Both the position numbers and the translations under genes were made by a program. From Aplectana chamaeleonis (taxonomy: Eukaryota; Nematoda; Chromadorea; Rhabditida; Cosmocercidae): a stretch of DNA of 64,000 bases. The stretch's first letter is position 1, and each line of letters opens with the position of its first letter. Positions 6,826-60,210 of this stretch are shown here, piece after piece. Location of the stretch: the NCBI GenBank assembly GCA_029168955.1, contig JAPDOI010000132.1, positions 1,364,001 to 1,428,000 on the forward strand, in the 5' to 3' direction. A model generated the notes under the pieces. The model made no database searches and was not told the origin of the DNA. It saw nothing but the letters and a program-made list of their open reading frames with translations.

Positions 6826-7480
6826 GTTTTTTCGAATATTCGACTTTTCAGATAATTCGGGATTTCAAGCTTTTCGAATAATTTGGAATCTTGAAGATAT
6901 CAAATAATGGACTTTTAAAATAATTCGGGATTTTGAACTTTTCGAATAATCGACTTTTCGAATAGTTTGGGATTTTGAACTTTTGGAGAATTCGGTTTTT
7001 CCAATAATTCGGGATTTTGAACTTTCCGAAGAACTTGGAATTTGAACTTTTCGAATGATCAACTTTTCGAATAACTGGTGATTTTGAACTTTAAGAATAT
7101 TCGGTTTTTCGAATATTTCGGGATTTTGAAGTTTTCGAATATTCGACTTGTCCAATAATTCGGGATTTTAAATTTTTCGAATATTCGACTTTACAAATAA
7201 CTCGCGATTCTGAATTTTTCGAATAATCGACTTTTCGAAGAATTCGGGAATTCGCCTTTTACGATTAATCGAATTTTCGAATAATTCGAAGTCGACTTTC
7301 TCAGAAGAACGATTTTTCGAATCATTCGATTCGGTCAAAGTATATTCCCCACTATACTTTCACATTTTCATATATTTTTCAAATATTCGATTTTTCAAAT
7401 ACTTCGGAATTCGGCGTTTTTCGAATAATCGGTTTTTCGAATTACCCGAAATTCGGCACTTTTGGAATATTTGACTTTTC
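6826..7480. repeat. AT-rich satellite, 42-bp degenerate unit built on TTTTCGAATA
   Basis: Around a dozen diverged copies of a 42-bp period can be read (GGATTTTGAACTTTTCGAAT recurring). The start phrase TATACTTT(T/C)ACATTTTCA appears at both ends (about 6808 and 7355), as if a 550-bp block had been duplicated. The open minus frame across it is repetitive and not a gene. Confidence 0.7.
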
Positions 7481-7484
7481 GAAC

Positions 7485-8060
7485 ACATAGTTGAGTCTCG
7501 GATGTGCAGACTGGGGACGGTGCTTCTCCTAGTACAAGATTTACCGCCGCCCTCCCAAGATGACAACGTACGAACTAGGTGTGCTCCTCGCGCAGAAGGC
7601 GGAGTCGTTCTTGCTGTGAGATGTGCCATCTTTGCAAGTTGACTTTGCTTGGAGCATCGGCGAATGGCTTTCTTTTAGCTCTTTCTCTCTCTCTAACGGG
7701 GTTAAGCACTCTCCAAGACGGATGGTCTGGTTGTTTTATAATGCTAATACGGCGGCGTATTCCAGCGCGGGCTGAAGAACCGCCTTATACGTAGTGAGTA
7801 TTTCATTGCTGCTTTTCCATGAGGTACCACCCAGGGCCCTGAAAGCACTGAGCTTAGCTTTGATGACAGCCTGCTTCGACACTCTTATGAAACTTTAGCG
7901 ACGGATCGAGCACAAGACCGATCAGTTCCGGAAATCGCGCAGCATGACGACGGTCTCCATCTCAGTTTACGTTGGGATAGGGCGCTGTGCACGGAAGGGT
8001 CCGTTGTGAGGACGGATACTGACGACTTAGATGAGGAGATCTCTAGAATCTTCTCGTCGA
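7485..8060 (-). pseudogene. LINE fragment (third LINE family), antisense and rearranged
   Basis: On the minus strand, two pieces match the element at 51.8-52.5 kb: 8050-7800 corresponds to the part beginning VSVLTTDPS and continuing into the core with LDPSLKF-like and LRALGG-like residues, and 7629-7485 matches the KMARLTARTTPPSARGAH region. Most of the reverse transcriptase is missing between them. Frames are broken. Confidence 0.6.
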
Positions 8061-8302
8061 AAAAGCTCTTCAGCGTGAACAGGTACTCATGGATTTTGTT
8101 GGCGGCAGCCTGTATGTTGCGAGCGTTCTGATGGGAGCCATGCGACTCCAGTAGCGTATTGTAGTTATCACAACGACATATTGGAGAATGTATTTTGCCT
8201 CTAACAATATCAAAAAATATACGATTTAGCACGTGTATGCGACAAATAATGCACACTGTCCAACCCGCAATTATTTCTATCTATAAACGAGAGATTTTCC
8301 AT

Positions 8303-8725
8303 CAGAGTTGAGCAGGGTTGCGTGCGACTCGGCGCAACGGGGATCATGAAAAATTTTGAAAATTTTCAATGCAAAATGAAAAATTGGGGGGGGGGGCTCG
8401 TCAAATTTTTGGGAAGAAAAAGGAAATTTCTCCAGAGCACTCGGGAAGCAAAAATAGGTCGTGGTAGTCGCCATCCGATAACAAGATTGCAGGGCGAGAA
8501 CGGCTGTTTATGCAGGGGCCGCCACGAACTTCTTTGTTACGGTGTGTATACGGTAGTTTGGGCAAAGTATCAGATTTCAGTCAAAATGTCTATTCAGAGG
8601 TTTGATGTCTATTTGTCCAGAGAGTGAGGGGCGGAAGAAAAGTTTACATTTTCCCAAAATCTTGGTCAACGGGGTGGAGGGTCGTAGCTCCACCGAAAAA
8701 TGGCGGAATGGCCTGCTGAACCCTG
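8303..8725. mobile_element. hAT-like MITE, CAGRGTTGAGCAGG family (copy 1)
   Basis: Ends CAGAGTTGAGCAGGGTTGCG and (minus strand) CAGGGTTCAGCAGGCCATTC form the inverted repeat. The interior has a G10 tract and AAAATTTT-type runs. Relatives are at 40.10-40.38 and 61.74-62.12 kb, both with 8-bp target duplications; here I see none. Confidence 0.6.
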
Positions 8726-8798
8726 AGGGGCGGGGGACGTAGAAGAGGGTACCTTTTTTGTCAAGAATGCTCCCACTCAGAAAATTGAGAACATGTTA

Positions 8799-10380
8799 CA
8801 ATACCCACCCTAATTCTTGTAGAAAAGACGCGGAAGATGCGGAAGCGCGTCTTTTTCGTCTTTTCGTCATAACTTCGTTTCTAGCGAACTAAAGTGTTTA
8901 GAAAGTTATATCAATCGACTCAAGACGTCGAGGCGAACACAATGATCTATTTTTCAATGTTCGAGGGATAAATTTGTCATCCTTCATTTGCTGAAGTACC
9001 TAAGGCGAGCCATAAACGGGCGAGTCTCCGCTTATTGCGCTGAGTCATTAACGAACAGTGTACTGTATAGCGCTGTTTTGGCACCGAAGCCAAGCCTGAT
9101 ATGTATCCGAATCTTACAAGAATTCAAATAGCACCATCTCTAACTCAAAACTCAAAATGATTCTGTAGAAACTCCAATCAAGGTACTTCAAAGCATTGGA
9201 ATACTCGATCTTCTTTTCTCAGAGAAGTAATGAAAGTCGCAACTTTCGCGACTTCTAATTGATTTCAGTTTTTGGAAAATCTGAATCCCTTTCAAAATCT
9301 GAAAAATCTGATTTTAGTTCAAGTTTATTTCTGATGTTGAAATTCCGAGTCTTTTTCAAATTTCGACAATTTCTAATTTATTTCAGCTTTTGAAAATATC
9401 TACTTTATTGAAAAACCTAACTTATTATGAAATTCTCTAGTTTGATAAATAATAAAAGATTCCTACTAATGTCACTATAAAATTTAAAAAATCAGAATTT
9501 AATTTACACTGTGAGAAATCTGAAATCGTTTTAAATTATTTCTTATACTAAAAATCTGATTTTATTTTCAATATCCAGAAATCCGTAAATTCATGTCAAG
9601 CTTCAAATTTTTTCTGAGAATTTCTGATTTATCTCAATTTCTGGTAATTTTTATTTATTTCAACTCTTGAATAATTTGAATTTAAAATTCAATTCGAATT
9701 TCAAAAAATCTGAATTTCATTGAAGTCGATTTCTGATTTAGGATTACCGAATTTTTATAAGTTATAAAAAATCCTCGGCTACTCCAAGTCTCAATTTTTT
9801 ATTTAATTTCAATCTTCGGAAAATCTAAACTTAATAATAAAATTATTAATCTGACTCGATTTTTTTAATTCTACTCGAATTTTGAACTCAATTAGTATTT
9901 TGAATGTTGAGGCTCTGCTGAGAATTTCAAATATCTACAATTCTCCTTGAAATCAGGCATTCTGACGCAACACAGAGCCCGATTGACATATAATAAGGTT
10001 GGGTGCTGCAGACAAGGATTGTCTACAGATCTGACAAGGTCAATTAAAGGTTTCCTGAGGCCTAATTCACACCTCAAAAGCCACCCCATCGAGTACTAGT
10101 TTGTATGCAGGTCAGTGTAGGGGAAACGTCAGAGTACCTCATTCGCCAGAACTTGCATCTAGCATGGTCCCGACTGCACATTCTATAACATTCAGCTCTA
10201 CACCCCGAAGTGTTGACTACTATTACAATAGAACATATTCTCGCCATCGTATTGCTGCTGGTCAATGCTTCTCCCAGATGCACTGATTTGCCGATTCATG
10301 AGAGTTTTCATGTTTCCTTGTGCATATGAAAGCTTTTCCTGATCTGCGATATAATTCTATATGTTCCCATTTTTACAAAG
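8799..10380. repeat. Left terminal inverted repeat (1582 bp)
   Basis: Matches 16095-17665 in reverse. The outer 100 bp is GC-balanced with GACGCGGAAGATGCGGAAGC; most of the arm is AT-rich TTTCAAATTCTGA-like sequence; the inner 350 bp is GC-normal. Short open frames at 9892-10283 (minus) recur almost unchanged in the right arm but have no recognisable domain. Confidence 0.85.
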
Positions 10381-10827
10381 GGCAATCAAAATGCAAGGTG
10401 GGTGAATCTTCTCTATTTTTCTATCCTAATTTTTTTTTGAAAAATTAGAATATTATTCGAGTCCACTTCTAGTTTTGAAGTTTCGAAATTTGTTCAAATT
10501 CTAGAATTCTAATTTTTTTTTAATTTTTGCAAATTTCTCATTGATTTCATTTTACTAGAAATTTTTATTTAATTCGAGATTTAACAACACTTTTTGATTA
10601 CAGTGCTCGAATTTCAGTGGAATTTCAAACCTAATTCAAACTTTGAATCACTGAGGATTTGTCGAGAAGCCTCAGTATTGACGTTTTCTTTTAAAAGCAC
10701 GCATTTTGACGCAGAACAGAAATCCGGCCCAACACGCCTACCTTCAGGTCCTGCGCCCCTCACATGTGGTGGAATTGGTGGCCGCTCTGCTCCTCAGCTG
10801 GGCCACCACAGCACCAATCCATCGCCA

Positions 10828-11745
10828 CAGAGACCAACCTATAGCCTAGTTTTGACTACATCGCTGCTGTTTTTCATCGCAGCGATTTCGTACCCGCCGC
10901 TGCAGCGATGTAGCAGCGGCAGCGATTCTGTTCATAGTGCATAGCCTCACGGATGATCGAAGAAATTCAATCAATCAGTGAAATTATTGGCTGGTATTCA
11001 TCAATAACGCGTTTCGACTCGAAAACACTGATCTTGTCATGTGAAAGGGTCAACGTTCACTAGACGAAACGTGTCGTTCGCTGGCAATCGCTCCATCGCT
11101 GCCATAATGGCAGCGATGCAGCGACGGTGAGCGACCATTGAGAATCGCTCTTCAAGCAGCGATGCAGTAAAACATAGGATTCCGTCGCCGCGACCCAGCG
11201 ATGTAGGACGTTTGCCACGAAGCGATCACAATTGGAGCGGCTTTCCATTACGCGCGATGAAAAAGGAACAGTTGTCCCTCGCATGGCCGCAGCGACCACC
11301 TGCAGTCAAAACTAGGCTTATGGGGAGGATCAACTGAACACGTCTAGCTTGTAACAACCCTTTATTAATGGTCCAATACGAATTCTTCATATTGGTTACA
11401 CATAGAAATGAGTTTGAACCGAGTATTAGAAGATTCTGAATTTTATTCAATTTTTTTCTGATCTGGAAATTCCAAAAAAAAATTTGAAATTTTGAATTTC
11501 AAACTTGATTTTGATTTAACTGGTTTTATTGTTTTCTTCTGCTTAATTTTTGAGAATTTCCTATTTACTCCAAAAGCTTGGAATTTTGAAATCAGAAAAA
11601 AATTAATAAAATTCAGAATCTTCTAATACTCCGTTCAAACTCTTTTCTATGTGTAACCAATATGAAGAATTCATATTGGACCATTAATAAAGGGTTGTTA
11701 TGAACTTAACGTGTTCACTTGATCCTCGCCATAGGTTGGTCTCTG
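10828..11745. mobile_element. Nested MITE with CAGAGACCAACCTAT ends
   Basis: Left CAGAGACCAACCTAT and right ATAGGTTGGTCTCTG are inverted. Long arms continue inward: AACCCTTTATTAATGGTCCA on the left faces its complement near 11,680, and they meet around 11,530. The left arm is itself split by another insertion (10844-11318). Confidence 0.65.
10844..11318. mobile_element. MITE inside a MITE, TA target, GCCTAGTTTTGACT ends
   Basis: GCCTAGTTTTGACT at the left and AGTCAAAACTAGGC at the right are inverted repeats flanked by TA. The interior has GCAGCGAT-rich palindromes. Removing it restores the left arm of the surrounding fold-back, so it inserted later. Confidence 0.6.
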
Positions 11746-12654
11746 GGGAGGGGGACTTTAGGACAAAATCATTATAGGATGGAGTAATTATACGCCATCT
11801 CGCGCCTCGTCAAAGTTGCCAACAGCAATCTTCCTCCCGAGTCTCTGCGAGAGACATTAGACAACCAAGATCTGGCCGCGGCGGGAAAGGCTGGGGCTCG
11901 GACGAGTTTTACAGGCGCCCTCCACGATGAAGGCTGCTCATCGGCTCTCACGACTGGACCACAGAAGGGAACCGATTTCTCGCCACTATCGATTACAGGA
12001 GTGGCAGAGATGGTTTATTACAAAAGCACATGAATCAGAGCATCAGAAGACCTCAAAAGGGTCCCTTTGGGAACTACATTATTCCTTCATGGTCACCTGA
12101 TCATCTTTTTCGGATAAAACAAGCAGATACAGTACTTATGCACTCGAGTTACCTGTTAAGGATAAGTTTCCGACCAGGGGTGGGCATTTACCGTTTACCG
12201 ATTAACCGGATTTACCGGTATTTGATCCCGAGAGCAGTTCTCTGGGCCCGCACACGGGAAGGAGGAAAGATCATCAAATATGACTACGAGCCGATTTATT
12301 TGGTACAATTTTAGGACCCCTAAGGCGCTTGCCCGCCATTGTTTTCAAAAACGATTTCAGGCTATAAAATTTTGTACGTTTTGAAAGAGAGGTTCATAGG
12401 AAAAAAAAACATATAAGCCGCCTAGGCACGCACATATGTCGACGGGATGAGATTTGAAACATTGTCACGATATTTAAAAACCACCCTATTACTCCCACGT
12501 GTTGTCTAATATGACATTATTTTTTTACTATTTTACGTACCGCCTTCCATCTCTTTTCGTTTCTTTTATCATTCAATTTTCACATTTTTCATTCGATCAG
12601 TTCGGCTAGGTATTCATTTTACCAAATTTATCATATTGGATTTATTCCATATGT

Positions 12655-12936
12655 CCTGTGCTTCTCTGGGCCAAATTCCGGTCCGCAATTGCGTCTCGAC
12701 ACGCTTTGCGGCCGCGCACATTCGAGTCGGAAGAGTTTCCAGCGGGGCAGCCGCCGATCTGTGGACTATAGGTGGGTTTTAGAAACCGGAAAGTGAACAA
12801 GATTGGAGGGAACTGTATAAAAAAAGCCATATCGAGTCGGCTTTGGCGCTGGAAACTCGACTGACTCGAGCGCGTGCGGCTGCAGAGCGTGTCGAGACGC
12901 AATTGCGAACCGGAATTTGGCCCATATAAGCACAGT
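12655..12936. mobile_element. MITE, GGCCAAATTCCGGTCCGCAA family (copy 1)
   Basis: Ends TGTGCTTCTCTGGGCCAAAT and, inverted, TGTGCTTATATGGGCCAAAT. The subterminal part reads CAATTGCGTCTCGACACGCT. Further copies are at 55.95-56.23 and 59.38-59.66 kb; a half copy sits near 29.64-29.73 kb. This copy ends only about 45 bp before the first long ORF of the large element, so it may have displaced that ORF's 5' part. Confidence 0.75.
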
Positions 12937-12981
12937 ATATATTATCACGCCGTAATCAATTAAATATTTTCAACCATCTTA

Positions 12982-14199
12982 TTGCACTCATATTCCGTAC
13001 TCTTTCATCTGATAAATATCCCTCAAATCTGCTCTCACACTACAAAATTCATAATAAATACTTATCATACTCCCACTAGTAATTGTAATACAAAAGGAGT
13101 AGTTTATTGTTTGCAATGCAATTGTTGTGAAAAACAATATGTTGGAATCACACAGCGAAATCTCAAAATTAGAATTAGAGAGCATCTGAATAACATTAAA
13201 AATTTCAAGAAACCTACGCTTTTGTACCATCATTTTCAACAATGTCGCTCAGGATTTTCTGTCTATATTCTAGATGCTCTAGCCTCAAATGAAGATCAAA
13301 GCGTCCTGCTTGAAAAGGAATTATTCTGGATCAAACTGTTGATGACTGCTCACCCGTTTGGTCTTAATGATAATATTAAGGGATATGGTAATATCACCGA
13401 TGTCACAAATCCGCTTTCATACAAAAATAGCCATCCCTTCTTTTCACTCAGAATCACCAAAGAGAGAAAAAATAGAGGTAAAAATAAAAACAAAAAGTCC
13501 AGAAATAGAGAAAAATATAAGGAAATTCTCCATTATCTTACTAATCATGAGAACGATTTCGATAAACCTATGGAAATTTATAGATTACTGAAGTCCTTGG
13601 ATAAGAAAAATATTCGAAGCCTTCTGAAGTCATCACTTTCAGCAGAATTTTTGAAGAATACTCAACAAAAATATAGATTCCTTGTCTTCTGTTTGCTAAC
13701 CAGCCTGCATTATAACATCAATATGTGCAAACCAAAAATACGTAAATTGGAAGGTCATCTTATCAAGATTCCGTTTGCTAACAAAATATTTGACAAAGTG
13801 AATTTCAATAAAATGTTTAATTCTCTCACCATCAAAAACATAATTGGGGTCGTAGATAACAATGAAAAAATCTTTAGACCAATATTTACTTACAGCAATC
13901 CTATTTCTGCTAGAATTTACAATTATAATAAATTTCTGAGAACTCTGACTACCACTGAAATTAAAGATGTTTTGAGTATGTCGTGTGTTTGTGAAACAGA
14001 TAGTGATAAATATCATAATTATATCTGCCCTAGCAATGGACATATAATTACAGGTAATTTGGATATAATTGACGATGTTGTTTTCCGTAACATCCTTAAC
14101 AAAGGCACTAAGTTCAGATTCAACGATAAGTCTAATAGACAAGATATTAAAACTATTTTTGATCAAACCACACTAGAGGTTGTCAAATCACTTGATTAA
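12982..14199 (+). CDS. GIY-YIG endonuclease plus Penelope N-terminal domain (ORF1 of the large element)
   Basis: A 405-codon frame. Residues 39-43 (GVVYC) and 53-55 (YVG) are the GIY and YIG strands, followed by the arginine-bearing helix LKIRIREHL (61-69) and a glutamate at LLEKE (about 109-113). Cysteines flank the first strand (CLQCNCC), as in zinc-binding GIY-YIG versions of Penelope-like elements. Residues 145-200 are a lysine-rich linker. The last third contains PIFTYSNPISARIYNYNKFL, a CVCE cysteine pair and GHIITGNLDII followed by ILNKGTKFR; this is the conserved region that precedes the reverse transcriptase in permuted Penelope-like elements. The frame has no in-frame ATG before about residue 121 and an in-frame stop at 12961, so the true start needs an upstream exon or is lost (MITE just upstream). 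The function would be target DNA nicking. It ends 38 bp before ORF2, in another frame. Confidence 0.8.
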   Translation: MHSYSVLFHLINIPQICSHTTKFIINTYHTPTSNCNTKGVVYCLQCNCCEKQYVGITQRNLKIRIREHLNNIKNFKKPTLLYHHFQQCRSGFSVYILDALASNEDQSVLLEKELFWIKLLMTAHPFGLNDNIKGYGNITDVTNPLSYKNSHPFFSLRITKERKNRGKNKNKKSRNREKYKEILHYLTNHENDFDKPMEIYRLLKSLDKKNIRSLLKSSLSAEFLKNTQQKYRFLVFCLLTSLHYNINMCKPKIRKLEGHLIKIPFANKIFDKVNFNKMFNSLTIKNIIGVVDNNEKIFRPIFTYSNPISARIYNYNKFLRTLTTTEIKDVLSMSCVCETDSDKYHNYICPSNGHIITGNLDIIDDVVFRNILNKGTKFRFNDKSNRQDIKTIFDQTTLEVVKSLD

Positions 14200-14237
14200 T
14201 AAGTTCAAAGCTAAACGGCGAGAAAATCAACCGTGTT

Positions 14238-15719
14238 ATGTCCTTTTTAGACACAGAATACAGGACAAAATTAAAACCACTTCTTCATGGAGAGTTACTT
14301 AAAGAAAATACTTGGAAGTTTCCATATGAAGTTGTCAAAAGGTTGCAAAAGGCTTTCATATTTTGTCCATTGGATAAGGCTAGCAATAACTATGGACTAA
14401 TTTGTAAGAAATATTATCTTATGTTTTTAATGAAAGAAATGGGAATTACTTCTGATGAAGTCAACAATACAATAGTATATGGAAATAACATTGAAGTGTA
14501 TGAAGCCGTTCCAAATGCAAATGAAGTTTCAATAATTCTTAAGCATAAGTTTTTCACCCTGAAGAACAAGTTGAAATTCGTAGTGGATTGTTCACTTCCA
14601 TTGATTTATGCCATACCGAAGCTACATAAAAATCCCATCAAATTTAGATGTATAACAGGAGCACATAATAGCAGTTTGAAACCTCTCGCTCAGGAATTAT
14701 GTGTGGTATTCACAACACTGAAGAAGCATTTTGTTAATTACGCTAACATAGTTAAATCTCGGAACAAGACAATAAAAACATACTGGTCAATTGCAAACAT
14801 AAATATTGCGGAGCAACTGAACTCATTTAAAAATAACGATGCGAAGCTTTATTCGGCAGATTTCACTGATATGTTCACCAACCTACCTCATACTACTATT
14901 ATTGGCTGTATGAGTTATTTGGTCAACATATGCTTCAAAAATGCTAATAAAAAGTTCATCGCAAGTAATGGTTTCAAATCTTTCTACACGGACGACCAAT
15001 CGAAAACCAATAGTTACAGATATTATTCTAAACATGACTTAATTTACTACATTGACTACCTTCTCAATAATAGCTACTGTTTATTCGGTAGCGTCGTTTT
15101 CAAACAGAAACAAGGGGTTCCACAAGGCGGTAATTTTAGCCCCATACTAGCAGACTTGGTTTTATCAGTGATGGAGTTCAAGTTTTCAAAAACTTTGTCT
15201 TTTGATCGTAATGTTTTGTTTGAGCCTTATAGATATATGGATGACCTATTAATCATCCATAACAAAACGGACAGTTATATAGAAGACATCTTAGCTGTTG
15301 TTTACAATAATTTGTTAGAGATTAAAAGAACCCATAGGGACAATTTTCACACCAACTACTTAGATATCAATATAAAAATAGATAGTAACGGAATTTCGAC
15401 TAGTATATACAATAAAACGGACGACTTCGATTTTCTCGTTAAGAAATTTCCGCAGTCAGATTCAGCAGTTTCTGTCATCATCAAGGCCTCAACAATATAC
15501 ACGGAGACCTTGAGGATAGCCAATGTCTGTTCTGAGGTGGGATTTTTCCTTGATAAATTAAAAGAGTTGAAAAATTCACTTTTGCATAATGGGTACTCGT
15601 CAGAATTCATTACTGCGAACATAGTCAAATGTATCTATCGCAACAAAAAAGTTTCATATAAATTTCTTCTTCCAGATGATCACGATAACATTAAAAAAGT
15701 TCTTTCTGCTATTTTATGA
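14238..15719 (+). CDS. Penelope-like reverse transcriptase (ORF2 of the large element)
   Basis: 493 codons from ATG. Motifs in order: PLDKASNNYGLICK (residues 45-58), PKLHKNPIKFRCITG (127-141), motif A SADFTDMFTNLP (206-217) with the first catalytic aspartate, motif B QGVPQGGNFSPILAD (292-306), and motif C YRYMDDLL (331-338) with the paired aspartates. All catalytic residues are present and there are no internal stops. The order and spacing match Penelope-like enzymes, which are related to telomerase reverse transcriptase. The frame is open upstream from 14196, overlapping the end of ORF1. A single frameshift, programmed or mutational, would make one protein of about 900 residues with the endonuclease at its N-terminus. 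AT-rich codon use matches ORF1 and differs from the GC-rich host exons nearby. Confidence 0.85.
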   Translation: MSFLDTEYRTKLKPLLHGELLKENTWKFPYEVVKRLQKAFIFCPLDKASNNYGLICKKYYLMFLMKEMGITSDEVNNTIVYGNNIEVYEAVPNANEVSIILKHKFFTLKNKLKFVVDCSLPLIYAIPKLHKNPIKFRCITGAHNSSLKPLAQELCVVFTTLKKHFVNYANIVKSRNKTIKTYWSIANINIAEQLNSFKNNDAKLYSADFTDMFTNLPHTTIIGCMSYLVNICFKNANKKFIASNGFKSFYTDDQSKTNSYRYYSKHDLIYYIDYLLNNSYCLFGSVVFKQKQGVPQGGNFSPILADLVLSVMEFKFSKTLSFDRNVLFEPYRYMDDLLIIHNKTDSYIEDILAVVYNNLLEIKRTHRDNFHTNYLDINIKIDSNGISTSIYNKTDDFDFLVKKFPQSDSAVSVIIKASTIYTETLRIANVCSEVGFFLDKLKELKNSLLHNGYSSEFITANIVKCIYRNKKVSYKFLLPDDHDNIKKVLSAIL

Positions 15720-15990
15720 ACGTTTGAGATAGCTACACTCTAATCTTGATTCCGATTCCTCCCCCATACCACCATTTGCTTGAATGTCGACATGTTTTGA
15801 CTTTATCGATCCCATTTTGATTGGACTCATTAATTCTTCCCCCTCCCCCCACTCTAAGACCACTTTTTCCTCTTTTTTCACCATTTTCTTGCCTCTTTTT
15901 AATCGTAATATCCTATGCAGCTCTTTACCAACAGTTCTCGCTCAATTTTTTCTTCTCAATATGCTTTCTCATCGACAATTCTGTTCCTCA

Positions 15991-16056
15991 CTGAGGAGCC
16001 TCGGCAGAATTGTTTGGTAAAATTCGTCTGCGGGTAGAGGCGAAACGAATTTTATC
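15991..16056 (+). other. Structured segment resembling hammerhead-ribozyme core parts
   Basis: CTGAGGA (15991-15997, fits CUGANGA) is followed by GCCTC, which pairs perfectly with GAGGC (16037-16041), directly followed by GAAAC. In the loop, GGTAAAATTCGTC (16016-16028) pairs with the sequence after GAAAC. Hammerhead ribozymes are known in Penelope-like elements, but here stem III's second strand lies inside the stem II loop, so the usual topology is not met. Listed as a structured RNA candidate only. Confidence 0.25.
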
Positions 16057-16094
16057 AACTTCTATTTCCTCTGCATCTATCTTTTCATCTCTTT

Positions 16095-17665
16095 CTTTGT
16101 AAAAATGGGAACATATAGAATTATATCGCAGATCAGGAAAAGCTTTCATATGCACAAGGAAACATGAAAACTCTCATGAATCGGCAAATCAGTGCATCTG
16201 GGAGAAGCATTGACCAGCAGCAATACGATGGCGAGAATATGTTCTATTGTAATAGTAGTCAACACTTCGGGGTGTAGAGCTGAATGTTATAGAATGTGCA
16301 GTCGGGACCATGCTAGATGCAAGTTCTGGCGAATGAGGTACTCTGACGTTTCCCCTACACTGACCTGCATACAAACTAGTACTCGATGGGGTGGCTTTTG
16401 AGGTGTGAAGTAGGCCTCAGGAAACCTTTAATTGACCTTGTCAGATCTGTAGACAATCCTTGTCTGCAGCACACAACCTTATTATATGTGAATCGGGCTC
16501 TGTGTTGCGTCAGAATGCCTGATTTTAAGGAGAATTGTAGATATTTGAAATTCTCAGCAGAGCCTCAACATTCAAAATACTAATCGAGTTCAAAATTTGA
16601 GTAGAATTAAAAAAATCGAGTCAGATTAAAAATTTTATTATTAAGTTTAAATTTTCCGAAGATTGAAATTGAATAAAAAATTGAGACTTGGAGTAGCCGA
16701 GGATTTTTTATAACTTATAAAAATTCGGTAATCCAAAATCAGAAATCGCCTTCAATGAAATTCAGATTTTTGAAATTCGAATTGAATTTTAAATTCAAAT
16801 TATTCAAGAGTTGAAATAAATAAAAATTACCAGAAATTGAGATTAATTAGAAATTCTCAGAAAAAAATTTAAAACTTGACATGAATTGCGGATTTCTGGA
16901 CATTGAAAAAATCAGATTTTTAGTATAAGAAATAATTTAAAACGATTTCAGATTTCTCACAGTGTGAATTAAATTCTGATTTTTAAATTTTATAGTGACA
17001 TTAGTAGGAATCTTTTATTATTTATCAAACTAGAGAATTTCATAATAAGTTAGGTTTTTCAATAAAGTAGATATTTTCAAAAGCTGAAATAAATTAGAAA
17101 TTGTCGAAATTTGAAAAAGACTCAAATTTCAACATCAGAAATAAACTTGAACTAAAATCAGATTTTTCAGATTTTGAAAGGGATTCAGATTTTCCAAAAA
17201 CTGAAATCAATTAGAAGTCGCGAAAGTTGCGACTTTCATTACTTCTCTGAGAAAAGAAGATCGAGTATTCCAATGCTTTGAAGTACCTTGATTGGAGTTT
17301 CTACAGAATCATTTTGAGTTTTGAGTTAGAGATGGTTCTATTTGAATTCTTGTAAGATTCGGATACATATCAGGCTTCGGTGCCAAAACAGCGCTATACA
17401 GTACACTGTTCGTTAATGACTCAGCGCAATTAGCGGAGACTCGCCCGTTTATGGCTCGCCTTAGGTACTTCAGCAAATGAAGGATGACAAGTTTATCCCT
17501 CGAACATTGAAAAATAGATCATTGTGTTCGTCTCGACGTCTTGAGTCGATTGATATAACTTTCTAAACACTTTAGTTCGCTAGCAACGAAGTTATGACGA
17601 AAAGACGAAAAAGACGCGCTTCCGCATCTTCCGCGTCTTTTTTACAAGAATTAGGGTGGGTATTG
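16095..17665. repeat. Right terminal inverted repeat (1571 bp)
   Basis: Reverse complement of 8799-10380, with scattered single-base differences and a few indels. The frames at 16192-16583 (plus) are the mirror copies of those in the left arm; conservation of both reflects recent duplication or gene conversion and does not prove coding. Confidence 0.85.
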
Positions 17666-17983
17666 TACTTGTAATACAAATGTAACTTACTTGAAAGTCT
17701 CAAGTGACTTACGTTTATATTACATGTAACTTAAAATTATATTACATGAAAGTTACACTTGCGTTACATGTAGCTTACATTCGTATATTCATCATGGGTG
17801 GCCATGACGCGGAACCGACAGCAACGCCTGTCCTAAGCCTGACGGAAGTGCGTCGTATACTCCCCTTGTAAACGCCTTTTTGGCCGATTCAAGTTACTTG
17901 AGAGTTAGCTTCGCCAAGTTAGTTGCATACAACATATCGGAGACGCAGTGTATGCGATATCCCGCCGATATGTTGCATGTAAC

Positions 17984-18924
17984 TTGAAGGCAGTGTTCAC
18001 GATGATTTTCGTTCCCGAGTTTTTCACATACAACAATGAGTTGGCCTCCAAGTGTTACCCAGATTACGAAGAAACGGCGAGAAACGCATTAAAACGTCGT
18101 ATTTCAGTGACATTAATCTATATCATGGACTAGTTGTCCGGTTGGATAAACACGTTCATGGTGGTTGTCACCGGTAAAAAAATGGGGCTAATCAAAAATG
18201 GAAGAATATTTTATACAAAGCTGGATTAATTAGAGCCCTAAAGAAAAAACGAGCAATAGAAAGTAGAGATCCACAAAAAACTTCATTGTCACAATGATAC
18301 TTAAGAGGCGGGGTGATATTTAAAGCCACAACCCAAGCTCAGGGGTAATGCTTGATAATATACTCCGGTCGCCGTGTACAGCAACCCTGCCCAGCGCGAA
18401 ATCTTAAATCGCTCAAATAAGCGAGAAAAAGCAAGGAAAAAGTCGACCCCGCCGAAATGGAAGAAAAAATGGGTAACGCCCACCGACAAGATTCCGGTCT
18501 CAAGAGGGAAGAGAAGCGCGATCGATTCCGTATCAAATCTATGTTCTTCCATTTGTGTTCGGTCTGGCTCTATTTTGTGACCTGCTTCAAAACGATGGCT
18601 GCGAATAACAAGAAAAGACAGGCTCGAGACAACTCGTCCGCGAACTTCTCGCCGTTCAAAGTCGGAATCTTTGAGGGACCACAACTCCGTTCGTAGTGAA
18701 TTCTGAGCGATTCTGGAGACACTTTTGTGACCAGCGTAAAGTTTTCTTGAAGATAAGCAGGGAAACAAAATTTTTATTCTTAGGTTGGGCTGTGCCTTTA
18801 AGGATTTCGTGCACTTCTGATGTGTTTTTCTCAATTTCTGCGTCATTTTAGTTCTGCATGGGGGTCACTTAATCAATATAGCGAATAATCTCAAAATTGA
18901 AGATTATCGTGAACACTGCCTTCA
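17984..18924. mobile_element. MITE, GAAGGCAGTGTTCACGATGA family, with a nested MITE
   Basis: Left GAAGGCAGTGTTCACGATGA and right (minus) GAAGGCAGTGTTCACGATAA are inverted. The same ends recur at 34.95-35.44 kb. A second MITE (18319-18801) sits inside. Confidence 0.65.
18319..18801. mobile_element. MITE, TTAAAGGCACAGTCCAACCY family (nested)
   Basis: TTTAAAGCCACAACCCAAGC at the left faces TTAAAGGCACAGCCCAACCT on the opposite strand at the right. Sister copies at 19.58-20.05 and 34.52-34.95 kb share CAGGGGT and GCGCGAGATCTTAA-like interior blocks. The minus frame of 181 codons over this copy is not a gene. Confidence 0.6.
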
Positions 18925-19394
18925 GAGGCAGCAGACACACTCAAAAAATTTGTTGAGATAACTACGTTACTGGGGTCTTATGACCCCAAGTAGAAGGCTT
19001 ACGCCGTTGGGAGCGTCAAAAACTAGTCAAAACTACTAAATTTGAGCAATGCTTGTCGAAAATTTCTGCAACCCCGCCCAAACAAAAAACTCGTCCAGAT
19101 TGATCGTTCGAATACGGATGCTTTGGCTGGAATCTGATGCTTCGAATGAGGTGAGCGTTCTAGTACAAGCTGCAAAAGTCTATTGCCTTAGCTAGATACT
19201 TCAACCGTTTTGTCGCTAATATTCACTGTTTCAACGCGCGCGGGAAAACTCGTCCACTTTCACCCGATAACAATAACAACCCTTATTCCTCTATTTGCAT
19301 ACAGTTTTCTCTAATTCCGCATACTACCTGCTCCAAGATTTCGATTTATGTCATAAAATCGATATCATTTTTGAGCGTGCTTGCTGCCTTTAAA
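18924..19394. mobile_element. MITE, AAAGGCAGCATACACGCTCG family, diverged copy
   Basis: Begins GAGGCAGCAGACACACTCAA directly after the preceding MITE and ends with TGAGCGTGCTTGCTGCCTTT. Better copies are at 26.60-27.05 and 40.97-41.40 kb. Confidence 0.5.
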
Positions 19395-19583
19395 ACCCTG
19401 AAATAAGTCACAAATAACCTACATCGGCTTAGATATGTTACAAGTGACTTGTTTTCAGCCTTTTATAGTGCGTGTAACTTGTTTTCATTTTTCTGAGCAA
19501 GACTGACCGGAAATATGCGTTTCAGTTGCGTTTTTCTGCTTCATATAATTTTATCCAGACTTCCGTCAAATCAAAGATTGCCA

Positions 19584-29219: not shown

Positions 29220-30480
29220 ATTTAAATTTTCGGGATTAACCTCTGATTTTGTTTTTTTTTATTCAAATAATTTTTATGATTGTCTGGTTTCGTAATACTC
29301 ATGTTTTTTTTTCAAGAATAGTTCCGGTTTGATACCGACTTCGATCGATTTCGGCATCAAACCAGGCCTACCCTAGGAAACCAAACAATCATATAAATCA
29401 CTGGAATGTAAGGAAGAAAAACAAAAAGAGAGAATTACAAAAATACACGTGAAATAAAAAATTAAATACCACTGTGAATTTTTTCTTCCCTAAAAGTTGT
29501 TTCGGAGGCATCTGGAAGGAAAAAATTGGTGTGCATGTAGATATAATACTTTAGTACGTGAAGAAACACAGAAGGACGGGTTTAGTCACAGAAGACAAGA
29601 AAATTGAAGAACATGAAAAAACACCTACAATCAGCTGGTCGGCTACGTCGCAGGGATCTCGTCCGGCTCGAGCGCGTGCGGCCGAGAAGCGTCTCAATAC
29701 GCAATTGCGGAGGGGAATTTGACGCAGAGGAGTGCACTCCCAATCAGATGGAAACAGAGTCAGTTTGCCCACCCCCAATCGACTCATTGGCCGTGAGACA
29801 GATTTCGGCATTGTTGCACGCTCTTCGTCCTAGCTTTCTTATCTCCTTAGAAAGCATCAGTATCACAATTTCGCAGGGTTGCTCTACCGTACGACTTATT
29901 TTCAGAGGTAGAACAGCTCAATTTACATGTAGAACTGGTTTCGATGTGCATTCGAAGACTTGTTCATTTTATAGCATATTGCAATGTATGCCCATGGTAT
30001 CATGTTTATAGCATATTGCAATGTATGCCCATGGTATCATGAAGAACTGATTGTGCAATAACTAAGTGTTACAGGTCTTCAGTCTAAACTAATATTACAA
30101 AGCTGTTGCTTAAGAGTCATGAAATATGAGCTCTCGATTTCGAGAATTTGCAGCTCATGATCATACATTATTCATTTGTTCATAATCATAATTATACATC
30201 ACCGATGTCTAAAAGATTGCAATAAAATATAATATTTTCACAATACTTCTTCAGCGATACATGTCACAGTTGTACAGCTAAACTATATCGAAACCAGTTA
30301 TGCAGGTTAATCGAGCTGTTCTACGTTTGAAATTAGCTCTTACGATGGAGAAATCCTGCAAAATTGTGATATTGAGGCTTTCTGGGGGTATGGAATGCTA
30401 GCGCGAAAAGCGTACTCCAATGCCAAAATCTGTCCCACGGCCAATGAGTCGATCGGGGTGGGCTGGATAACATTATTCAA
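29220..30480. other. AT-rich non-coding stretch
   Basis: Contains a 42-bp direct duplication (TATAGCATATTGCAATGTAT at about 29972 and 30007) and a half copy of the GGCCAAATTCC MITE family near 29640-29730. No gene seen. Confidence 0.35.
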
Positions 30481-43450: not shown

Positions 43451-43912
43451 GCCACTGAATTCACCGCAGGGTGTGAATATCAGAAGTGCAGGATGTAACT
43501 GGTTACAAAAAGTATATTCTGGTTGCCATTGAAGCTTTATAGTGTCTTAAATGTCATATAACTGACTAAATGGATTGTCCCTCCACTAAAATCGCAAACG
43601 TTTCATATTCATGGTTCAATTCTAGGGAGTCAATCAAGATAACTATACGTTGACGAGCCTGATATCGAGCGACTATTATGGGGTGAAAAGATTATAGTTG
43701 GGGGTGTGTATACAAGTCTGTTGGTACCTGCTCGTTGGTGCCTCTGCTTCTACTGAACCCAGCAGACGTTTGAGTGTACACAGGGAACGTTCGAGCGATA
43801 TAGCGTGCACAACTATATCGCGAAAGTATCCCGCACATTGCATAAAGGTGTCGCCGTCCGGCACACTAAGGCCTCTGGTCCATAACACCTTAGGATCCGT
43901 ACCTAGGGAGTC

Positions 43913-44715
43913 ATGGAGTCTTTGGCCACAAGCCACAATTTCGCCACCCTGAACTGTCGATCGCTGTCGAGTGATATCCAAAAAACTGCGCTATCCAGAC
44001 TTCTGAGCTATTTCCATGCACCGTTTGCTGCTTTGCAGGAAACCCGCCTCAAGGATAGACCCGTCATCAGCGTCGGAGAGTACACCATCTACTGCGGTAA
44101 CGCTGACGATAGGAGAGTGGGAGGCTGTGCAATAGCTGTAAGGAAGGATTTCAATGGTATGGTCAAGGAGTTCGGCTCAACGTCGTGTCGGAATGCATTC
44201 GTACGACTGCGGGATCACAGAGGATTCAATCTGTGGATAGTGAGTGCTCATGCGCCCACTGAAACCGCCGAAGACAATTCGAAGGATGCGTTTTATGAGG
44301 AACTCAATACGTTGCTGGCCAGGATACCTTGTCAACATGCTGTTGTCGTGGGGATTGACGCAAATGCGAAGATGGGACTTGATCAGGAATCCGGAAGTAC
44401 TCGGTAAATGGTTCTACCCAGTGGAGCAAACATCGGACAATGGCTACCGCCTTGTCGACTTTGTGAACGCAGTGGTCTGATTATTGCATCGACATTCAAG
44501 AGGAATCATCGCCGCCATCAGCTCACGTGGCAGGGACCAACCCGGCTATCTCCAGAAGAGCAGCGGAAGCGGAAGATGACAATTTTGAAACTACAGCTTG
44601 ACTATGTCCTGACGAGGAATATTCCAGTATCGGACATTCGAAGATCTAGAGCTGTGTGATGTCGCATTCGATTCGGATCACCGTCCTGTTCTGTTGAACT
44701 TCACTGCGAGGATTC
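43913..44715 (+). pseudogene. LINE endonuclease domain, frameshifted
   Basis: Starts MESLATSHNFATLNCRSL. The catalytic landmarks of the exonuclease-endonuclease-phosphatase fold follow: LQETRLKD with the metal-binding glutamate, GGCAIAVRKDF, WIVSAHAPTETAED, VVVGIDANAKMG, and DSDHRPVLLNF near 44,670. The frame changes near 44,395, 44,465 and 44,650, so no single frame encodes the domain. All key residues are still readable across frames, which points to fairly recent decay. Its role in a live element is to nick target DNA to prime reverse transcription. Confidence 0.8.
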
Positions 44716-44755
44716 ATAAGAGGAAGCGAGGGGCTCAGCCTTCCAGAGAATTGAC

Positions 44756-46933
44756 ATGACAAGTCTCAGAGATGAAGAGTGCAGAAGGAATTTCCGACAA
44801 CGCGTTTCTATTCACATCGGAGTACGGACTAAGAAGAAACTTTGCGACGCGGATTCTTTGTCAAGTGCATCCAGGACGCTTCGGAAAGAGGCACTCCCGG
44901 TTGTACAGCCTAAGAAGAAGTTCGCCTACGTCTCAGAAGAAACAACATCTACCTACAACAGAGTATGTGCTCTCCGAACTGCAGGAAACTTCGTGGAGGA
45001 GAAGCGTCTGAGGAGGAAGTTGCGTCGGCAGCTTCAAAGTGACCGCGAACGAGAGTGGACGTGTAGAGCTAAGGAGTTCGAGAAGGCTTGGGAGGAGAAG
45101 AATCCGAAGAAAGCCTACACGTTGCTGCGACAGTATAGCGGGAAGATGAAGAGATGTTCTCCTGTCTTGAACACTACCAATGGAGTTGCAGTTGGTGATG
45201 CGACGCTGCCAATATGGAAGGATTACTTCAGTTCACTACTGAATCGTCCAGCGCCATCAGTACCTGAGCTCCCGCATGTTCAAAGAGCACATTACGATGT
45301 CAGTGAGGAACCGCCGACTGAGTCTGAAGTTTTGGATTGTGTCCGGAAAATGAAGAATGGAAAGGCAGGTGGAGATGACAACATCACTGCTGAAATGCTG
45401 AAAGCTCTTCCTCCGTCTGGGATTCGTGAAATGACCAACACCATCCGTGCCATATGGATGAGCGAAAGGATACCCGATTCGTGGAGACATGCGATCATCG
45501 TACCTCTTCACAAGAAGCTATCCGTCACGGATCCTAAGAACTACAGAGGAATCTCTCTACTTCGTCTCATGTACAAGGTTTTAGAACGTATCATTCTCGA
45601 GCGACTTATCAAACATCGTGAAGGAACGACCAGAGATGAGCAAGCCGGTTTTCGACCTGGAAGATCGACCATCGACCAAGTGTTCGTCGTGAGAAGAGTA
45701 ATTGAATCGTGGCAGCGGTTTTCGAAGCCATTACAGCTTGCTTTTTGGACTTTGAAGCCGCGTTCGACTCTCCTCATCGTGATCGATTGCTCAATGCTCT
45801 GCGAGCAGATGGAGTCCCGGAAAAAGTGTGTTCGGTTAATCGAGGACATGAACAAAGGAACAACAGCAGCAGTTCGTACACCTGTCGGATTTACGTCAGC
45901 TTTCGAGGTGAAAACAGGAGTAAGGCAAGGAGCCGTTGCAGGACCTTTTCTTTTCAACTTCGCCGTTGATGACATCATGCGTAGAGTCGCAGAACAGTTT
46001 CCTGCGGATGTGATCCTAACACCATCAGGACGCTCCCTTGTCGACCTGGAGTACGCCGACGACATTGTGTTATTCGCTGAAAACAACGCAAAACTGCAAA
46101 GGATTGTGAACCTCGTTTCGAAGTATGCCGCAGCCTATGGACTTCGTCTTCGTCCCGACAAATGCAAGCAGATGTGGGTCTCTCAGAGGCCTTCAACTGG
46201 AGTTTGTGTGGACGGACAACGTATCGAACTGGTGGACGATTTCTGTTATTTGGGCTGTTTGCTGAAGAACGATGGTAGTTATGCAGCGGATATTCGACAA
46301 CGATGTGCGAAAGCTACGTCTGCATTCAATTCTCTAACCAAGTGTTTGTGGTCTACCACCATCGCGAAGGAAGTCAAGTTGCGCGTCTACCTATCCGCTA
46401 TTCGCCCTATCATGATGTACGGATCGGAGACGTGGGCAGCACCGAAAACGCAGATGGAAAGGTTGGATTGCACGGAGAGGAAGCTTTGTAGGCGTTTGCT
46501 TGGATATTTCTGGCCGCGTGTATGCCATAACGAAGACCTTTACAAGGAAATCGACGCAGTACATCAACGCTTGACACGAGGGAGGTGCCAGCATCTCCTA
46601 ACGCCATCTCAAGCAGCAATGGAAAGTCGACTTCGACTGCTCGGGCATATACTAAGAAGAACGCCGGATCGTCTCGTACAACACGCTTTAAAAATGCTTC
46701 CAAATCCTGTCTGGAAACGGCCACCTGGGCGTAGGCGAAAGTTCTGGACGGATGTGGTTAAAGAGGATTTAAAGTCACTCGGCATCGAAAGACAGTTCAG
46801 GCGCGATGTTTCGTTTCGCAGGAAATGGAATAGTGACAGCTGGATGGAATGTGTTCAAATTGTGGCTGAAGACCGTGAAAAATGGACACGGCTGACTACT
46901 AGGACGGCACACCTCGGTGAAGATGCGGAATGA
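44756..46933 (+). pseudogene. LINE reverse transcriptase, open 725 codons but motif A out of frame
   Basis: Landmarks: AGGDDNITAEMLKALPPSG, WRHAIIVPLHKK, YRGISLL, RDEQAGFRPGRSTIDQV, TGVRQGAVAGPFLFN (motif B), LEYADDIVLFAEN (motif C) and RLRPDKCKQMW. After the RT come SETWAAPKTQMERLD and PPGRRRKFWTDVV, the usual RTE C-terminus. Between 45,745 and 45,835 the frame is shifted: motif A (CFLDFEAAFDSPHRDRLL) is read only in the +1-related frame, whereas this ORF reads FWTLKPRSTLL. A one-base loss in a T run and a one-base gain in an A run restore the frame, so the ORF looks intact but lacks the first catalytic aspartate. Confidence 0.85.
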
Positions 46934-55249: not shown

Positions 55250-57460
55250 TTTCACTGATGCCTCGGTGACCATCCCTGACGATTAGTCGTCATCCACTTT
55301 CTTCATAGTACATAAAGCACCCGACGGTATTCAGCCGTTTTCAACCATCTTAATATCCTGAAGATCACCCCTCATGGTTCCTAGGTTACATATGATGAGC
55401 TCCTAGGGTTGATATCACAGCGATACCAGCCATGACAAAGAATACGTCGCTTAACTCCTCAATTGAACTCAATTTCCACAGAAGACCCATGATATTGCAT
55501 CGCCTGTAACTCGCTTTTGCACTTGATCTACTGTGGATCTCTCCAAGCCAGTCCAGCCCTCGATACCCAGCTGGCCAACCATGACGTGTGGTTGCCTCCA
55601 AATTTCTCCCTGGCTCGATGGTTCAAAGAGCACCCACGATATTCCGCCTTCAACTTGCTAACCCAGTTGATGTTCTGACGATCGCTCACCAAGCTTAGTC
55701 ATCTCTAACTCAGTCTCGATCTTGATGTTCATCAGACAATCCACAGCATGTAGTCGTGTCCAACTGTCCCCCGTACTAGATATACTAGGGAATGACCATG
55801 GTATTCAGCCGTCTGCAACCCGTTCTAGCACTTGATGTGCTCTGGATCTCCCATCCCGCATAGTGCCCTCCAATCTAGTAGGTTCGCCGAAACCCAGGAA
55901 ATCAACTACGACGTTTGTTTGTTCCCGATTTTCTTCCGCGCTTTATAGTATATACTGTGCTTCTCTGGTCCAAATTCCGGTCCGCAATTGCGTCTCGACA
56001 CGCTTTGCGGCCGCACGCGCTCGAGTCAATCGAGTTTCCAGCGCCGAAGCCGACTCAATATGGCTTTTTTATACAGTTTTCGCCAATTTTATTTAGTTTC
56101 CAGTTTTCAAAACCCATCTAGAATCAGCAGATCGGCGGCTGCGGCGCTGGAAACACTTTCGAATCGGAAGAGCGCGGCCACAAAGCGTCTCGAAACACAA
56201 TTGCGGATCGAAATTTGGTCCAGAGAAGTACAGTGGAGCACCCACGATATTCCGCCTTCAACTTGCTAACCCAGTTCATGTTCTGACGATCGCTCGTCAA
56301 ATTTAGTCCTCTCTAACTCAGTCTCGAATTTGATATCCAACAGACAAACCATAACGTGTTGTCAACTCCATGTGTATACCGTACTTGCTATAGGATAATG
56401 CCAATGGTAGTCGTCTGCAAACGGCTTTCGCACTTGATATAATGTGGACCTCCCATGAAGCTTAGCGTCCTCTAATCCAATCGCTCAGCCGGTGCATAAA
56501 GAACAGCAATGATTTGGTTCTCCCCAGTTTTCTCCTGTGTTTGATTTCTCAGACAAATCATCGCTCGAAGCGGGACCGGAGAGCGACTCGAGCGATGCTG
56601 TCTCTCCGCTCCAAGCAAAAATTTGCCATCAACCAGAACCACAGCAGTCGCTCTCCGGGTGACGGCAGTCCCATTTGGAGCGATATCCGGCCGCATTTGG
56701 CACTGCGGTCGCTATACGGGCGATTTTCTGAAATTACCCAACTGCTTTTTTTATTTCAACATCCTCTCGAGAAGGTGCATCCTATTAGGAGGATAGGGTA
56801 CTTGTTACAGCTTGTGGGCAGAGAAGTTATTCCTGCCACAGGCCGCAACAAGAGTACCATACCGGCATGGTCCATGAGGAAGCCTCCCTCACCGCGAGCT
56901 ATGGGGGATCCCCTCGGCCGCCGAAAATTGTCTTCTTGGAAGTGAACCAAAGTCACCTCTCGAGAGTGGCTTCGAAAGGTCAACTGCCCGTCTACACGAG
57001 ACGAGTCGCCTTTTATACCCCCAGATTGGTTATTCTTTGAAGAACAACCAGTCTGACGTCTCTATATCTCTGGCGATGGCACCGTTGTCGCCCTGAGAGC
57101 GACCGGACAGCGGCCGAGGCTGGTATCCCAATTGGACAGGGACCGCGGTGGCATTTCGACCCTCGGCCGCTGTCCGGGCCATGCGTCATAATTTGGAGGA
57201 GCGGGTTCCGCTCCGAGTGTGGATTCTCTGAGATGTAGTATTAGGAGCGCCCACGATAACCAGCCGTCTTGAACCCGCACTCGAAGTTTATGTTCTGACA
57301 ATCGCTCATCGAGTTTAGTCGTCTTTAACCCCTTTGACCCGGTCTCGATGTTGATATCCTACGGACTATCCAATACGTGTTGTCAGCTCCCATGTTCGAC
57401 CACACTTTTATGATCCAGGAAAACCCACGAGATTCAGTCGTCTGCAACCTCATTTCGCAC
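55250..57460. repeat. Degenerate long-unit tandem array, TTCAGCCGTCTGCAACCC units
   Basis: Phrases recur in the same order: TATTCAGCCGTCTGCAACCC, GCACTTGATGTGCT-GGATCTCC, GTTCTGACGATCGCTC, TCTAACTCAGTCTCGA, CAACACGTGTTGTCA-like. Copies are seen near 55.3, 55.65, 55.8, 56.25, 56.4, 57.25 and 57.43 kb. The array is interrupted by a MITE (55.95-56.23) and by other unrelated sequence (56.5-57.2 kb). Confidence 0.6.
55954..56234. mobile_element. MITE, GGYCCAAATTCCGGTCCGCA family (copy 2)
   Basis: Ends ACTGTGCTTCTCTGGTCCAA and TTGGTCCAGAGAAGTACAGT. It sits inside a unit of the tandem array. Confidence 0.75.
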
Positions 57461-59375: not shown

Positions 59376-59378
59376 GTA

Positions 59379-59664
59379 TCTGGGCCAAATTCCGGTCCGC
59401 AATTGCGTCTCAACACGCTTTGCGGCCGCACGCGCTCGAGTCATTCGAGTTTTTACCGCCAAAGCCGAATCGATATGGCTTTTATAAACAGTTTTCTTCA
59501 ATTGTGTTTAGTTCGCAGTTTCTAGAACCCACCTAGAGTCAACACATCGGCGGCTGCGGCGCTGGAAACTCTTTCAACTCGAAAGCGCGCGGTCGCAAAG
59601 CGTGTCGAGACGCACTTGCGGACCTGAATTTAGCTAAAAAAAAGAATTTAAATTTGGCCCACAG
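59379..59664. mobile_element. MITE, GGGCCAAATTCCGGTCCGCA family (copy 3)
   Basis: CTGGGCCAAATTCCGGTCCG at the left, TTTGGCCCACAG at the right, with a small AAAGAATTTAAA insertion near the right end. Confidence 0.75.
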
Positions 59665-59669
59665 TATTT

Positions 59670-60210
59670 TGGATCTTCTTTTATTGCCACCAAATTTTTC
59701 GCTTGCGGAACTTGTCATTCAGCGATGTCAGCTGGAGCCAGTATTTCATGTGTGTTCAGCTTTCCTAGTTCAATGATTCTGCCATTAGATTTCATAGGTG
59801 CATACATAATAGTAATAATGCTTCATCTTCTAAAAGTCACACATGTGAGAGAAAAACAATATATACTCTATCTCGTAGGCCAATTTACAATAGCCTTCAA
59901 GGAGCGTTGGCATCCTATTAGTGACCGGCCGGTTCGGTAATTCCATTTCACAATTTTGCATTCACTAGAAAGCAACAATGGAACCACTTCGCTTGAGAGC
60001 ACCCGTGTCCATTTTTCAGGGTCATCCTAGGTTGAGTATTTTTTCTATATTGGCTCGACCTTCTTTAAAGTCATTAAATTTCATAGAAGCATACATTGAA
60101 AGTGAAAACTTCATTAAAATCGAAGAGTTGCTCCTTTACTGTATTTACAAATTGGGATGCTTCACAGACAATTTTTAGTGCAGGCTCGGAACAGCGATTA
60201 AAATATATAT
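59670..60210. other. No supported gene
   Basis: Two AT-rich plus frames (59725-59940, 59978-60178) share a short block (ATTAGATTTCATAGGTGCAT / ATTAAATTTCATAGAAGCAT). No domain recognised. Confidence 0.25.

Follow-up and report, generated by a model that had tools for sequence, protein, structure and literature searches.

A 64,000-nucleotide stretch of the nematode Aplectana chamaeleonis (assembly GCA_029168955.1, contig JAPDOI010000132.1, positions 1,364,001 to 1,428,000 of the forward strand; hereafter the window) contains, at 8799-17665, a unit with the parts of two kinds of mobile element: inverted arms of 1.58 kb with a TA dinucleotide at each side, and a core bearing a Penelope-like element (PLE) in which the GIY-YIG endonuclease precedes the reverse transcriptase (RT). 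Is this a hybrid that mobilizes DNA-transposon ends with an RT, or did one element land in the other? An earlier note on this DNA had proposed both. The unit is almost certainly a 5'-truncated, frame-broken PLE nested, most likely by chance, in an unrelated TA-flanked fold-back DNA transposon. It is read as nested rather than hybrid because the PLE and the fold-back each occur apart from the other, only the window spans the junctions between them among the matches scored, and C1581, a sister fold-back, carries the core without the PLE.

The outer architecture described in the earlier note was recovered in full. The left tip begins CAATACCCACCC at 8799, the right tip finishes GGGTGGGTATTG at 17665, a TA lies immediately outside each, and the two arms align by blastn at 97.6% identity over 1,585 columns. 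Pfam profiles also confirmed both coding domains and their order, GIY-YIG (E 2.4e-7) before RVT_1 (E 2.4e-8; frames in Table 1). The description of the core as one open reading frame (ORF) following another did not hold: two other copies of the PLE carry GIY-YIG and RT in a single frame (974 aa in one, 958 aa in the other), which is broken in the window copy, and a two-ORF element is thus ruled out.

Two families that occur apart

All genome searches were run against the window's own assembly (1.04 Gb, 2087 contigs), a single assembly. A protein search with the RT gave 3158 candidates, the best 85 of which were scored and yielded 88 matches; flanks were read for 31 loci. Several of the 88 matches are free of stops, with open frames of 902-974 aa, and in the 974-aa frame the GIY-YIG domain (residues 97-179) lies upstream of RVT_1 (residues 718-836). 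The 3' end of the PLE is near-constant, ...TTTTCATCTCTTTCTT with small variants, and is followed by differing DNA in 12 loci (L029-L040). Fuller copies also show direct repeats of ~460 bp in four of seven stretches, as does the PLE at C300, an arrangement that matches the pseudo-long terminal repeats (pLTRs) of PLEs described in the accessible parts of PMC3846280 and PMC11167929. These repeats are not present in the window copy, which is truncated at 13023, where the fuller copies continue; its identity to six of these is 97.6-98.3%. The PLE is therefore a separate retrotransposon of the permuted, GIY-YIG-first type, independent of the arms. That the arms might be its own inverted pLTRs was ruled out, the pLTR being a different sequence of ~460 bp in direct orientation.

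Arm sequence stands beside the PLE at two of the 31 loci with the 3' flank read (the window and C300), and at the other 29 there is no arm in the stretch read. Nineteen of the 31 loci are added 0.9-kb stretches; ten of these have a genuine PLE tail, and the remaining nine (eight with no tail match, and L055, where the match looks spurious by eye) show only that no arm lies within 0.9 kb. When any fold-back DNA is counted, three of the 31 loci are touched (the window, C300 and C632), in a different place each time. Five further PLE loci (L030, L033, L043, L052 and L060) have other stretches in common with fold-back loci; none of these stretches matches an arm of the window element. L026, on contig C1889, and L028, on contig C1785, have a left flank in common and may represent a single insertion; parts of the assembly may be present as both haplotypes.

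Three further comparisons returned nothing related. Hammerhead ribozymes are common in PLEs and not required in them; Rfam gave none at E <= 1 across window 7000-19500, and one suspected by eye near 15993-16055 was rejected on the same result. Eleven pattern matches to viral contigs included 0 relatives, and the comparison with solved structures gave 0 matches.

The arms were followed in the same way. For a search with the outer 201 bp, the best 40 of 639 candidates were scored; all 40 matched, and they include at least eight inverted tip pairs besides the window's own, spaced 1.8-12.3 kb apart. Eighteen other fold-back elements were read (20 stretches), 13 from tip to tip and five in part. 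All 12 that had both flanks read carry TA on each side, as do the window element and C300; L020, for which only the left flank was read, has TG there. Many copies (e.g. L009 and L015) are palindromic in order, with arm, inner module and hairpin module followed by their mirror image. The inner and hairpin modules are tandemly repeated in L027 (1826-7994), L020, L021, L019 and C1581, with a period of ~0.52 kb over several kb in L027, in the manner of an emerging satellite.

No PLE was found at the nucleotide level in any of these 18 fold-backs (five read in part), nor in the two same-core fold-backs C1581 and C1519, in the DNA read. Two of the other fold-backs (L010+L011, and L016) hold a long interspersed nuclear element (LINE) in place of the PLE. 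The result is an abundant, documented family of TA-flanked fold-backs with 1.6-kb arms, apparently non-autonomous, whose cores have gathered LINE, PLE and miniature inverted-repeat transposable element (MITE) insertions. The reading frames of the LINE insertions are near-identical to those of a LINE at window 43907-46933, which we take to be RTE-like, resembling nematode RTE elements. Outside the fold-back of L019, a distant GIY-YIG stretch (L019:9002-9262, 31% identity) possibly represents a second PLE family.

These two distributions bear directly on the hybrid, in which RT and GIY-YIG endonuclease would form a single functional unit with the long inverted repeats and mobilize these ends. 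Only the arrangement of the window itself speaks for it, whereas fold-backs without the PLE and PLEs without arms are each the rule, and the window PLE is truncated with a broken frame. Two of the observations that the earlier note had named as telling against a hybrid were made, namely RT copies that end at boundaries inside the core and arm-bearing elements without the ORFs in the DNA read. The third, a transposase-bearing relative, was not found: inspection by eye of the frames of 120 aa or longer from 17 elements revealed no transposase; no family search was run on these frames, and there was no genome-wide search.

Junctions, insertion and alternatives

Both junctions between PLE and fold-back were used as queries, with the 40 best candidates scored in each search, so that a badly decayed second composite could escape. 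For the 3' junction (query 15945-16245), a single one of the 40 scored matches, the window itself, spans the junction; 34 are PLE tails ending at query positions 150-166, and five, including the left arm of the window element, are arms starting at query position 151. For the 5' junction (query 11740-13140), 106 matches came from the scored candidates and only the window passes 13018. At the 3' junction CTTT is common to PLE and arm, and at the 5' junction four bases belong to neither. Neither these searches nor the 18 other fold-backs showed the set of loci that a hybrid predicts, with one RT core recurring between matching TA-bounded ends. With both junctions unique among the scored matches, the hybrid is scarcely credible. 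A would-be class of element is thereby removed, as an RT between DNA-transposon ends is here a matter of nesting only.

Two sister fold-backs show the core in another state. C1519 and C1581 match the window core as far as 13018, including the nested repeat and its MITE at the corresponding position, and then continue into other DNA, PLE-free as far as it was read. The C1581 points that match the two window junctions are separated by 1,399 bp, versus the 3.07 kb of truncated PLE between them in the window. The right tip of C1581 was read, with TA outside it; the comparison of C1519 was made without tips.

Two other loci place a PLE in or at fold-back DNA. At C300, a tandem PLE array, made up of one truncated and one longer copy, sits in a fold-back arm: the arm sequence breaks off at element position 1358 and picks up again at 1356 on the far side of the PLE, with CTT common to the PLE tail. 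Tips with TA outside were read at 60041 and 79460, and we infer that they belong to one element, the stretch 71660-79379 lying outside the DNA read. The C300 insertion is an event independent of that in the window, because its position and orientation in the arm differ. At C632, the PLE lies at the edge of a hairpin module: over 501 bp its 5' flank matches the L017 fold-back core at 94% identity, and downstream of the PLE 37 bp match the inner module; this locus was read without element tips. About 6 bp (TCTGTG) stand on both sides of the C632 PLE by eye (L035 + L064) and are a possible target duplication.

Since long palindromes are hard to assemble and one assembly only was searched, misjoins might be suspected of having set the PLE beside the arms. 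Such an error is very improbable: the 3' junction is a typical PLE 3' end meeting the arm at the common CTTT, and C300 has another PLE in an arm with both sides read.

Target-primed reverse transcription, truncation at the 5' end and repair that loses target DNA are known for retroelements of the PLE type. By this route, reverse transcription of the PLE RNA would have started from its 3' end where CTTT was nicked next to the inner right arm, synthesis would have halted short of the PLE 5' end and left the copy truncated, and repair would have joined the copy to the core with a loss of ~1.4 kb of target DNA. The fold-back itself would be mobilized in trans by a TA-specific, Tc1/mariner-like transposase from elsewhere. 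That the PLE 3' end met CTTT in the window and CTT at C300 is relevant to how reverse transcription begins in elements of this kind.

Several observations weigh against nesting by chance or against this account of it. C1581 is a sister element, not a pre-insertion allele, and its left tip lies outside the DNA read; the 1.4-kb loss is deduced from this comparison and might instead reflect a deletion that came later. The window PLE shows no visible target-site duplication, and best-candidate searches could miss a badly decayed second copy of the composite. Some PLE preference for fold-backs is possible, because two of the 30 other PLE loci (C300 and C632) also touch fold-back DNA. Finally, the likeness of the two arms within an element is no rule, as L009 and L020 each have an arm closer to another element's.

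For this last reason, arm identity does not single out the window locus. The earlier note had taken it as a sign of recent activity or gene conversion; recent copying and gene conversion are both possible, but the high identity is not peculiar to this locus. Over 1,100 bp the window arms are 98.1% identical to each other versus 96.1-96.8% to the arms of four other elements, and the arms of L022 are also most alike within the element. Low values occur as well, 90.8% in L014 and 76.0% in L016, the latter disturbed by an insertion in one arm.

Whether the loaded fold-back has moved since the PLE arrived is a separate question. It may have moved, or may still be able to move, as one TA-bounded unit through a trans-acting transposase, and both tips and both TA copies are indeed intact. 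Moreover, the right flanks of the window and C1581 fold-backs differ while both, like C1519, carry the same nested passengers, which suggests earlier spread of fold-backs together with their cargo. The PLE-bearing fold-back shows no sign of such spread as a composite: a second copy of neither PLE junction was listed among the 40 best candidates per search, and no transposase was recognized in the reading by eye described above. Movement after the PLE insertion is accordingly unlikely, and the claim that the PLE "now travels with" the fold-back found no support. It is just as doubtful that the family carries along any sequence inserted in its core, which would turn the PLE-loaded copy into a cut-and-paste vehicle for a retrotransposon. 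An empty chromosomal site, proposed earlier as a check, was not found: among the best 40 of 7894 candidates for a right-side query (17560-17811, arm end plus right flank), only the window covers it.

Feature map and surroundings

The features of the unit are collected in Table 1. The dispersed repeat nested in the hairpin module, which has the same MITE inside it in the window, C1519 and C1581, always ends by 13018 in its matches (best 40 of 5576 candidates). The MITE-like hairpin forms a family, with copies at window 12649-12942, 29638-29729, 55945-56233 and 59377-59631 and at fetched loci. Outside the unit, a minisatellite-like array with periods of 42 bp and longer occupies window 6829-7483. 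Three weak SL1 RNA matches (45.6-50 bits against a cut-off of 75) hint at a nematode host without proving one.

Table 1. Features of the unit and its edges, in window coordinates.
Feature	Position	Strand	Remark
TA, left target-site copy	8797..8798		TA on both sides in 12/12 other elements with both flanks read
Left fold-back arm	8799..10433		Homologous to other elements to ~10433; mirrored in right arm to ~10380
Inner module of fold-back family	10434..10842		Inverted mirror copy in complete relatives L009 and L015; none on right side of window element
Insertion of uncharacterized kind, 476 bp	10843..11318		Splits modules adjacent in L009, L015, C1581 and C1519
Hairpin module of fold-back family	11319..11748		Comparison with other fold-backs
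Dispersed repeat nested in hairpin module, carries MITE-like hairpin	11746..13018		Common to fold-backs C1519 and C1581
MITE-like hairpin	12649..12942		Also at window 55945-56233 and 59377-59631
Four bases at 5' junction, in neither core nor PLE	13019..13022		Junction alignment
5'-truncated PLE	13023..16094	+	3' end has CTTT in common with arm; end possibly up to ~16097
GIY-YIG domain	13093..13341	+	Stop-to-stop frame 12964-14199 (Pfam)
RT part of broken frame	14196..15719	+	RVT_1 at ~14940-15317 (Pfam)
PLE 3' stretch (pLTR)	15637..16097	+	Directly repeated upstream of frame in fuller copies
Right fold-back arm	16095..17665		Arm alignment and 3' junction query
TA, right target-site copy	17666..17667		Flank reading

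Comparison with known systems

Both families may be new as sequences, though not as kinds, and the unit is an ordinary nesting of two known kinds. On the PLE side, GIY-YIG-first domain order is the mark of the Naiad and Chlamys groups, and permuted elements of this order are reportedly the subject of Craig et al. 2021 in Mol Biol Evol. To call the window PLE a Naiad would rest on its domain order. The PLE here resembles permuted PLEs in its GIY-YIG upstream of RT in one frame, its near-constant 3' end, its 5' truncation and its direct pLTRs, and it aligns over 637 columns at 31% identity with a database relative whose domains stand in the same order. It departs from them in that the window copy is without a 5' end and pLTR and has a broken frame, and in that the 1.58-kb arms are no part of the PLE. 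The group names appear in the accessible parts of PMC10941475 and PMC12477816, and Craig et al. 2021 is cited in that of PMC12910113.

On the fold-back side, Tetris of Drosophila virilis, as presented in the accessible part of PMC4079207, is alike in structure: apparently non-autonomous, with very long inverted repeats and a modular interior containing repeated units. Unlike Tetris as presented there, the fold-back here duplicates TA and has LINE and PLE insertions in its cores. A further parallel comes from Penelope copies of Adineta vaga with inverted pLTRs, which are likewise PLEs bounded by inverted repeats. According to the accessible part of PMC3846280, those repeats are the PLE's own pLTRs of ~180-220 bp, one case lacking a target duplication and the flanked cases having one of 8-10 bp. 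The arms in Aplectana chamaeleonis, unlike the repeats described in that source, are not pLTRs and belong to an unrelated, TA-flanked family.

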